A stretch of 35,807 nucleotides of DNA from Fimbriiglobus sp. (GTDB taxonomy: Bacteria > Planctomycetota > Planctomycetia > Gemmatales > Gemmataceae), in the NCBI GenBank assembly GCA_025351325.1, contig JANXWE010000275.1, positions 1 to 35,807 of the forward strand, read 5' to 3'. The notes under the pieces are model-generated. The model searched no databases. It was not told where the DNA came from and was given only the letters and a program-made list of their open reading frames with translations. The position numbers and the translations under genes are program-made. This document shows, piece after piece, positions 8,983 through 11,142 of the stretch. Positions within the stretch are counted from its first letter, which is position 1; each line of letters starts with the position of its first letter.

Positions 8983-9480
8983 TTAGCCCGCGAATTGGTT
9001 CAACCATTGCCGCAGCAAATCTGCCAGCGCGTCTTGCTCCTTCATCGGCAATTTCGGTAGCGATGCGGCCGCTTCGTCGAAGCGTGTGGCCGTAGCCGCG
9101 TCGATCAACTTGCAACCCTTCGCGGTCAGTTCGACGACCACCCCACGCCGATCCGACTGGTCTTGCCGACGGACGACCCAACCTGCTGCTTCGAGCTTGT
9201 CGAGACGGTTGGTCATGCCGCCCGACGAGAGCATCACACTTTGAAGCAACTGCGATGGAGCCAGCGCTCCACGTGTGCCTTGCCGTCGCAATGTGGCCAG
9301 AATGTCGAACTGCCCCAGCGCCAGTCCGTGTTGTTCGAGTGCGGACTCCACCGAGCGTTCGAGGTGCTTGGCGAGCACGATCACACGGCCCACCAAACCC
9401 AGTGGACTGGGATCGAGATCTGGGCGGGCCGCGCTCCAGGCCGCGAGCAAGCCATCGACGGCATCGGGAGTCTGTTTCAT
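8983..9480 (-). CDS. MarR-family transcriptional regulator
   Basis: A 165-residue regulator. Residues about 30-150 form a MarR winged-helix domain: LGQFDILATLRRQG, the recognition-helix region LAPSQLLQSVMLSSGGMTNRLDKLEAAGWV, and the wing RRQDQSDRRGVVVELTAKG. It should bind DNA as a dimer at palindromes. It is transcribed divergently from ilvC across a 47-bp dyad containing two ATCTTG-N4-CAAGAT-type sites that overlap both promoters, so autoregulation and control of ilvC are likely. No Shine-Dalgarno sequence is visible. The predicted transcription start falls at or next to the ATG, so the mRNA may be leaderless. The ligand is unknown. Confidence 0.88.
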   Translation of the reverse strand: MKQTPDAVDGLLAAWSAARPDLDPSPLGLVGRVIVLAKHLERSVESALEQHGLALGQFDILATLRRQGTRGALAPSQLLQSVMLSSGGMTNRLDKLEAAGWVVRRQDQSDRRGVVVELTAKGCKLIDAATATRFDEAAASLPKLPMKEQDALADLLRQWLNQFAG

Positions 9481-9486
9481 TCCGGT

Positions 9487-9549
9487 AACCTAATGCGAAA
9501 GTATCTTGCTGTCAAGATTCTTGACGACAAGATACTTTCGCGGTATCCT
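9487..9549. promoter_or_regulatory. divergent marR/ilvC promoters with tandem MarR-type operators
   Basis: Toward ilvC: TTGACG (9521-9526), 17-bp spacer, TATCCT (9544-9549). Toward marR: TTGACA (9510-9515, complement), 17-bp spacer, TAGGTT (9487-9492, complement). A 47-bp dyad centred at 9518 spans 9495-9541. Its outer arms (9495-9508 and 9528-9541) are perfect over 14 bp, its inner arms (9511-9517 and 9519-9525) perfect over 7 bp, and only the two pairs between them mismatch. Read differently, it is two palindromes of the form (A)TCTTG-N4-CAAGA(T) centred 15 bp apart (9503-9518 and 9519-9532). Binding there would cover both -35 elements. Confidence 0.75.
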
Positions 9550-9583
9550 GATGGTGCCTGAACACATACCGAGGAACCGTCCG

Positions 9584-10639
9584 ATGAAAGAACTGCACCT
9601 AGGGAACAACCACGACACCGCCGTCGAGCGCGGCGACTACCCACCTGCGAAGGTCAAAGAAATCTTGAAGGACGAAATCGTCGCCGTGATCGGCTACGGT
9701 GTGCAGGGCCGTGGCCAGTCGTTGAACATGCGTGACAACGGCGTGACCGTGATCGTCGGCCAACGTCAGGGCGGCAAAGCCTACGACCTCTGCCTCGAAG
9801 ATGGCTGGGTCCCCGGCGAGACTCTCTTCGATCCCGAGACGGCCGCCGCCAAGGGCACCGTGATCCAGTACCTCCTGTCCGACGCCGGGCAGAAGGAAAT
9901 GTGGCCGAAGATCAAGCCGCACCTGACCGCTGGCAAAGCACTCTACTTCAGCCACGGCTTCAGCATCGTTTACAAAGACCAAACCAACGTGGTGCCGCCG
10001 ACGGATATCGACGTGATCCTCTGTGCCCCGAAAGGTTCGGGCACCACGGTGCGCCGGCTCTTCCTCGAAGGCCGCGGCATCAACAGCAGTTTCGCCATCC
10101 ACCAAGACGCGACCGGCAATGCCCGCGAGCGCTGTCTGGCCCTCGGCGTCGCCATCGGCTCGGGTTACTTGTTCGAGACGACTTTCCAAAAGGAAGTCTT
10201 CAGCGACCTCACCGGCGAGCGCGGCGTGCTCATGGGCGCGATCTACGGGTTGTGGTTGGCCCAGTACGAAGTGCTGCGGGAACATGGCCACAGCCCGAGT
10301 GAAGCGTTCAACGAAACGGTCGAAGAAGCGACGCAGAGCCTCTACCCGCTCATCGCGGAGAAGGGCATGGATTGGATGTACGCCAACTGCAGCACGACCG
10401 CCCAGCGCGGCGCGCTCGACTGGTTCGCCAAGTTCCGCGACGCATCGAAGCCGGTTTTCGAGAACCTGTACCACTCGGTGGAAACGGGCGAGGAGACCCG
10501 CCGGGTGCTGGAAGCGAACAGCCGGCCGGACTACCGCGAGCAGCTCGAAAAGGAGCTGAAAGCGATCTCGGAAAGCGAGATGTGGAAGGCCGGCGCGTGG
10601 GTGCGCTCGCTCCGCCCGGAACGTGCCGGCGATGAATGA
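9584..10639 (+). CDS. ilvC: ketol-acid reductoisomerase
   Basis: A 351-residue enzyme that converts acetolactate or acetohydroxybutyrate to the dihydroxy acid with NADPH in branched-chain amino acid synthesis. Visible motifs: nucleotide-binding GYGVQG (37-42) and VIVGQRQGG, catalytic-region His124 (FSHGFS), PKGSG around Lys150, and metal ligands Asp208/Glu212 in FSDLTGERGVL. The length fits the short class I form. The N-terminal sequence (GYGVQGRGQSLNMRDNG) resembles the fungal/Bacteroidetes-type branch more than the proteobacterial one. The ATG at 9584 has GAGGAA 7 nt upstream; the longer frame starting at 9506 lies inside the operator and is unlikely. It stands alone, without ilvB/N, under a promoter overlapped by MarR-type sites. 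Confidence 0.93.
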   Translation: MKELHLGNNHDTAVERGDYPPAKVKEILKDEIVAVIGYGVQGRGQSLNMRDNGVTVIVGQRQGGKAYDLCLEDGWVPGETLFDPETAAAKGTVIQYLLSDAGQKEMWPKIKPHLTAGKALYFSHGFSIVYKDQTNVVPPTDIDVILCAPKGSGTTVRRLFLEGRGINSSFAIHQDATGNARERCLALGVAIGSGYLFETTFQKEVFSDLTGERGVLMGAIYGLWLAQYEVLREHGHSPSEAFNETVEEATQSLYPLIAEKGMDWMYANCSTTAQRGALDWFAKFRDASKPVFENLYHSVETGEETRRVLEANSRPDYREQLEKELKAISESEMWKAGAWVRSLRPERAGDE

Positions 10640-10666
10640 TTCCAACTGACTCTGGTATGACATGAA

Positions 10667-10710
10667 TTAAAATAAATCAGTCTTAGTACAATAAGACTGA
10701 TTTAATTTAA
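10667..10710 (+). terminator. ilvC terminator
   Basis: An AT-rich hairpin with a perfect 12-bp core (10674-10685 and 10692-10703) and a 6-nt loop, extended by A/T pairs and followed by TTTAATTTAA. It lies about 35 bp after the ilvC stop. Confidence 0.7.
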
Positions 10711-11142
10711 TGCTCTGCCTCAATTCTGACGCTCATAAAAACGCTAGCAATTTGGCTTGATCAATTCGCAAAGGCACGTCGGCACACCAACCGAACAGCG
10801 CCCACAGATTTCGTTGGAAATTGTTTCCGGAGGGATGTCGGCGCCTAACTCCGGTGCGCACAACGGCGTTCCGGCGGCGGCCGCGCGGGTCAACTTGGGT
10901 TGCCCTCCAATCGCCGCTGTCAACCCCTTGACAGTGACCCATGACCGGCTCTATGATGATCGAGCACTGAATGAGCCGTTCCCAGTAAAGCACTCTTCCG
11001 TAGTGAGTCGATTTCTTCGGGCGGCCTGAATACCCAACACGCACATCGGCCCAAGTGCTGTCTGTGCCTTACGTTCTGTAAAATGCGATCCGTGCCACGG
11101 AATTGCATTTGCGTCGACTTTCCGAATCGGGAGGGTTTCGTG
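10711..11142. other. gene-poor stretch between ilvC and the next operon
   Basis: About 430 bp between the ilvC terminator and the start at 11143. Overlapping ORFs exist in several frames but none has an obvious family. The only stretch with coding-like texture is the short cysteine-rich minus-strand ORF listed separately. Remnants of a decayed gene are possible. Confidence 0.5.
10744..10923 (-). CDS. possible small cysteine-rich ORF (uncertain)
   Basis: A 59-residue frame starting at TTG, with GGGG immediately upstream but no good spacing. The C-terminal part contains LCAPELGADIPPE, ICGRC and TCLCELIKPNC, six Cys in about 40 residues, which resembles a small zinc-ribbon or a Cys-rich peptide. 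No recognised family. The rare start, poor RBS and short length make it doubtful; it could be the 3' remnant of a decayed gene. Confidence 0.2.
   Translation of the reverse strand: MTAAIGGQPKLTRAAAAGTPLCAPELGADIPPETISNEICGRCSVGVPTCLCELIKPNC

Follow-up and report, generated by a model that had tools for sequence, protein, structure and literature searches.

The window, that is, the whole stretch of 35,807 nucleotides that was analysed, was found to contain an ilvC gene on the plus strand at 9584..10639, which encodes a ketol-acid reductoisomerase of 351 aa (TIGR00465, 320 bits, over the cut-off), an enzyme central to the synthesis of valine, leucine and isoleucine. A regulator gene, referred to as marR, was found on the minus strand at 8983..9480 and encodes a protein of 165 aa, identified as a UrtR-type MarR regulator by Pfam, PDB, fold and residues. 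One copy of ilvC only was found in the genome, and an acetolactate synthase gene was located elsewhere in it. In L005, L058 and L061 (G036), the match to ilvC was split in two, with the reading frame changing near residue 84-91, which is either a frameshift or an assembly error. A 46-bp AT-rich dyad (10666-10711), which occurs once in the genome and may be a transcription terminator, was found a short way past the stop codon of ilvC. A perfect G+C-rich hairpin, ACGGAGAAACCCGAGCC-AGTT-GGCTCGGGTTTCTCCGT, terminator-like and lacking a T run, was present at 1025-1062 after the ORF at 34-1011.

The region between the two genes was found to contain a long inverted repeat at 9495..9541, not assigned to a strand, in which the 23-nt arms (9495-9517 and 9519-9541) were 91% complementary around the single centre base 9518. 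The nested dyad described in the initial annotation was thereby confirmed, with the outer 14 bp (GCGAAAGTATCTTG / CAAGATACTTTCGC) and the inner 7 bp (GTCAAGA / TCTTGAC) perfect. With a score of 18.6 it was the strongest dyad of the window and far beyond chance, as the best dyads of 60 simulated windows with the same dinucleotide frequencies had a mean of 10.2 and a maximum of 12.8. The dyad was made up of two overlapping 18-bp palindromes, namely site 1 on the marR side (TATCTTGCTGTCAAGATT, 9502..9519) and site 2 on the ilvC side (ATTCTTGACGACAAGATA, 9517..9534), neither of them stranded, which overlapped by 3 bp and had their centres 15 bp apart. These were the sole matches to TATCTTN6AAGATA at no more than two mismatches within the window, and two such matches were obtained in 1 of 100 shuffles. 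Comparison with relatives placed the conserved unit in the 33-bp core at 9502-9534 and not in the full 47-bp dyad; the sequence of the 7-bp outer extensions (9495-9501 and 9535-9541) was not conserved. The unconserved spacer bases of the two sites (window 9502-9534; L003, L005, L016, L024) were found to mirror each other beyond arms shuffled among species, with 58 matches vs 48.9 in the shuffled arms (p ~0.01, without correction for phylogeny), as though the palindrome were repeatedly made more perfect by template switching.

The ilvC promoter was called by the promoter scan as TTGACG-N17-TATCCT (9521-9549, plus strand), with the -35 box TTGACG at 9521..9526 inside site 2 and the -10 box TATCCT at 9544..9549, followed by the presence of a likely ribosome-binding site GAGGAA at 9571..9576 on the same strand. 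A -10 element of the form TAnnnT was found at 17+-1 bp beyond the TTGAC of site 2 in 33 of 40 intergenic regions of relatives, where about 5% would be expected per sequence. On the minus strand, the sequence reads as a marR promoter TTGACA-N17-TAGGTT (9515 down to 9487), with the -35 box at 9510..9515 inside site 1 and the -10 box at 9487..9492, 6 nt ahead of the ATG; TAnnnT was found at this -10 place in 18 of the 26 relatives that contain two sites. Because the -10 box stands so near to the ATG, a leaderless marR mRNA is predicted, and a distance of 6-7 nt was also observed in several relatives. Both divergent promoters thus had their -35 boxes within the inner half-sites of the operators. 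The initial annotation had proposed -35/-10 pairs with 17-bp spacers facing each way and both -35 boxes inside the dyad; the placement of the boxes and the ilvC pair were upheld, and the marR pair reads as described but has a weak -10 box and was not called by the scan. The marR start assumed for some Gemmata-like loci was very near site 2, so that a marR promoter is hard to place there, a point against the double-operator reading.

The regulator contained the MarR domain PF01047 (43.6 bits vs a cut-off of 24.6; 2.7e-11), and its domains were of the MarR and related winged-helix type only, none of them LysR-type. The closest solved structures in PDB were 8ylf (3.5e-31) and 8ylh (5.5e-29), named in the structure library as MftR of Burkholderia thailandensis and PecS of Pectobacterium atrosepticum, respectively, both of which are urate-responsive UrtR proteins; the match to HucR was much weaker (7e-9). 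The AlphaFold model of the regulator (mean pLDDT 87.8) was superposed on the MftR and PecS structures, DNA complexes included, with TM 0.81-0.90, above other MarR structures. The model contained an N-terminal helix at residues 7-18, the extension typical of UrtR proteins, with W15 conserved in 40/40 ilvC-linked proteins. The urate signature, which we take to be W20, D73, R106 and R118 of HucR with the numbering verified on the HucR chain, was represented by W15, D59, R92 and R104, invariant in all 40 ilvC-linked proteins and throughout the homologues compared; in E. coli MarR, 2 of the 3 alignable positions were missing. By these features the regulator is a UrtR protein of the PecS/MftR/HucR type, so that the earlier label of a MarR-like regulator holds for the family but not in its generic sense.

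The residue R133 was found in 40/40 ilvC-linked proteins, in a helix that contained further changes among them, whereas 45 of the 48 UrtRs from other phyla had histidine at this position, as did MftR, PecS and HucR. Arginine was also present here in four related planctomycete UrtRs located away from ilvC, and the change from histidine is therefore not tied to the new target. HucR H142 was considered as a key residue and rejected, being not conserved in MftR or PecS. The regulator of L028 (G009) was found to contain an in-frame insertion of ~37 residues just ahead of the DNA-recognition part and still adjoined ilvC.

Close homologues of the regulator, defined by about 50% identity or more, were present in 27 genomes of 119 relatives and were divergent from ilvC in 26 of them, the exception being the homologue of G117, a member of another planctomycete family. 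In the named collection, the divergent pair was found in 31/31 loci at >=51% identity, mostly labelled as Gemmataceae, Gemmata or Fimbriiglobus and some merely as planctomycetes; beyond these loci the similarity dropped to <=48% (Proteobacteria). A divergent efflux-pump target, the usual but not obligatory UrtR trait, was replaced by ilvC in all 31 named loci, and other UrtRs in the data set faced EamA or MFS transporters. Across 392 genomes of the phylum, the other strong matches to the regulator did not adjoin ilvC. In a tree of 103 UrtR proteins, all 40 ilvC-linked proteins were placed on one branch with a support of 100/99. The UrtR-ilvC clade is essentially Gemmataceae, and the tree fits a pairing that arose once.

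Beside the ilvC clade branched the UrtRs of L065-L068 (G401, G483, G117 and G449), which belong to another planctomycete family. They shared the change from His to Arg, had good operators and stood beside a neighbour other than ilvC, which in G117 and G449 was a divergent ORF for an APH-type phosphotransferase. These proteins are candidates for the pre-capture state of the ilvC-linked UrtR.

The operators were compared over 40 distinct marR-ilvC intergenic regions, with mismatches scored over 12 positions. Site 2, which lies on the ilvC -35 box, was the best-conserved element and was recognisable in ~38/40 regions, with <=3 mismatches in 36 of them and in a shifted register in two more (L087, L090). 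Site 1 was kept in 26/40 and lost in 14/40, notably in Gemmata-like genera, and autoregulation through this site would therefore not be universal. An apparent deletion of the 15 bp between the two repeats, leaving one site, was found in L008 and L078, which suggests that a single 18-bp palindrome is a functional unit. No site was found in ~20 ilvC promoters that could be read in relatives lacking the regulator nearby, the best matches containing 5-7 mismatches. The conservation of the dyad upstream of ilvC, set beforehand as the test that could refute the proposal, was therefore borne out at site 2. The division into two sites 15 bp apart also stood, and the view of one 47-bp dyad gave way to two overlapping 18-bp operators, of which the marR-side one is dispensed with in part of the clade; the proposal that one regulator gates both its own gene and ilvC is well supported by the comparison.

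The same operator was found well beyond this clade. TATCTTN6AAGATA was present at <=1 mismatch upstream of 45/49 UrtR genes of Proteobacteria and Actinobacteria, a level that shuffled sequences almost never reach, and UrtR genes of other planctomycetes also carried it. Both sites of the window showed the traits of UrtR operators, that is, an 18-bp palindrome in a divergent intergenic region with the first 6 bp of each half best conserved. The pattern equals the footprinted PecS operator of Vibrio vulnificus, TATCTTTATATTAAGATA, of which two sites occur in the pecS-pecM region, and overlapping sites have been reported for PecS of A. fabrum (PMC6391409).

At <=2 mismatches, the genome itself contained the two dyad sites and one probable chance match, fewer than were found for a reversed control pattern. 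In 12 relatives, matches with <=1 mismatch were found at the coordinates of the marR-ilvC locus and the remainder was near the control rate. A wider regulon was rejected, as the extra sites with 2 mismatches occurred near the rate of the reversed control (somewhat above it in G013 and G010), and the regulon seems from these searches to consist of marR and ilvC alone. In L010 (G004), a third operator-like site, TATCTTGATATCGAGATA, was observed between the dyad and ilvC, overlapping the ilvC -10 region.

The dyad is very probably a double operator for a dimer of the divergently encoded UrtR-type MarR protein, which would act as a local repressor of ilvC and of itself. Sequence comparison shows the two sites and how they are conserved, the linkage of the genes, the overlap with the promoters and the subfamily of the protein; from these we infer binding, repression rather than activation, and release by a ligand. 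Each 18-bp palindrome of the TATCTT-N6-AAGATA type would take one dimer and, with the centres 15 bp apart (~1.4 turns), the two dimers would lie on different faces of the DNA. Both -35 boxes lie in the inner half-sites, so the bound dimers would cover them and shut RNA polymerase out of marR and ilvC at the same time; entry of a small molecule into the UrtR pocket would then release the protein and de-repress both genes. Simultaneous repression by occlusion is the simplest reading, and PecS and MftR are repressors of both of their divergent genes. As the ilvC-side site is the conserved core, control of ilvC would be the selected function.

The position of a site over the -35 box suggests repression and falls short of proof. 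Activation of ilvC in the manner of IlvY is an improbable alternative: the linked genes are ilvC and the regulator's own gene only, and some MarR proteins do activate, but the ilvC -35 box itself lies under the site, so that a dimer bound there would obstruct the polymerase, and the UrtR relatives are repressors. A long and near-perfect inverted repeat might also be an RNA hairpin (terminator or attenuator), the end of a mobile element or a chance palindrome instead of an operator. This is very improbable for the present dyad, whose half-sites match the UrtR operator across phyla and are conserved whereas the outer arms are not; a role as RNA hairpin or terminator was rejected, since both predicted start sites lie downstream of the dyad and neither transcript would contain it.

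Under the preferred reading as a ligand-released double operator, xanthine, urate or an acid of the branched-chain pathway is a possible ligand. The regulator may still sense xanthine or urate, so that purine breakdown, e.g., after starvation, would switch ilvC on; this is put at somewhat less than an even chance. In its favour, the four urate-signature residues are invariant and PecS of Vibrio answers xanthine better than urate. Against it, uricase was found in none of the 15 pair genomes searched, a xanthine dehydrogenase above the family cut-off was likewise found in 0/15, with not even a distant one in the genome of the window, and the histidine common to other UrtRs is arginine in every ilvC-linked protein. 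That arginine, clade-wide and accompanied by neighbouring changes in the same helix, would fit a pocket retuned to 2-acetolactate, 2-aceto-2-hydroxybutyrate or a keto acid, so that ilvC would be induced by the substrate of its own enzyme, as with IlvY. The locus adjoins ilvC only and the regulon is local, and the logic of E. coli ilvY-ilvC (PMC6483228) points the same way, but the urate signature is intact and the same arginine occurs in the four related UrtRs that do not adjoin ilvC; retuning is likewise put at somewhat less than an even chance. It is conceivable, though rather unlikely, that an ancestor of the Gemmataceae captured a urate/xanthine sensor on a single occasion and so made ilvC respond to purine breakdown; if true, the capture would be a direct transcriptional link from purine catabolism to branched-chain amino acid synthesis.

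Among known systems, PecS-pecM and MftR-mftP share with the present pair the protein branch, the N-terminal helix with Trp, the urate-signature residues, the 18-bp operator TATCTT-N6-AAGATA, the divergent target and the two or overlapping sites (PMC6391409). Their target is an efflux pump, whereas a biosynthetic enzyme is found here, their conserved His is replaced by Arg133, and the genomes tested contained neither uricase nor a bona fide xanthine dehydrogenase. HucR of Deinococcus radiodurans is a UrtR divergent from an enzyme gene, uricase, which it represses (PMC5487221), as is predicted here for ilvC; however, its target degrades the ligand itself, it uses a single site and it is the weaker match in sequence. 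MhqR of S. aureus, also a repressor of the MarR family, has an operator that resembles the present one, TATCTCGAA-ATCGAAATA, and an allosteric loop like that of UrtR proteins (PMC12893000), but it is more distant in sequence and structure and controls quinone detoxification. In arrangement the locus resembles IlvY-ilvC of E. coli, in which the regulator is also divergent from ilvC, with overlapping promoters and two adjacent operators and a site over the -35 region (PMC6483228). IlvY is, in contrast, a LysR-type activator with acetohydroxy acids as co-inducers, and the regulator here is an unrelated MarR protein and most likely a repressor. The locus is thus most likely a MarR analogue of ilvY-ilvC with an unrelated regulator of opposite sign.

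In the literature searched, of which the coverage was incomplete, no paper was found that describes ilvC under a MarR-type regulator or a marR-ilvC pair, and none on such control in planctomycetes. The novelty lies in the target, ilvC, which is of a kind new for a UrtR regulator. The targets known for UrtR regulators are efflux pumps, uricase and virulence genes, and here one bacterial family has fixed such a regulator on a core biosynthetic enzyme. If confirmed, the ilvY-ilvC design would have evolved here independently, around an unrelated regulator. The pair would then also make TATCTT-N6-AAGATA an operator rule that can be carried over to UrtR genes in different phyla, and it would offer a convenient case for testing how the ligand of a urate pocket is retained or altered.
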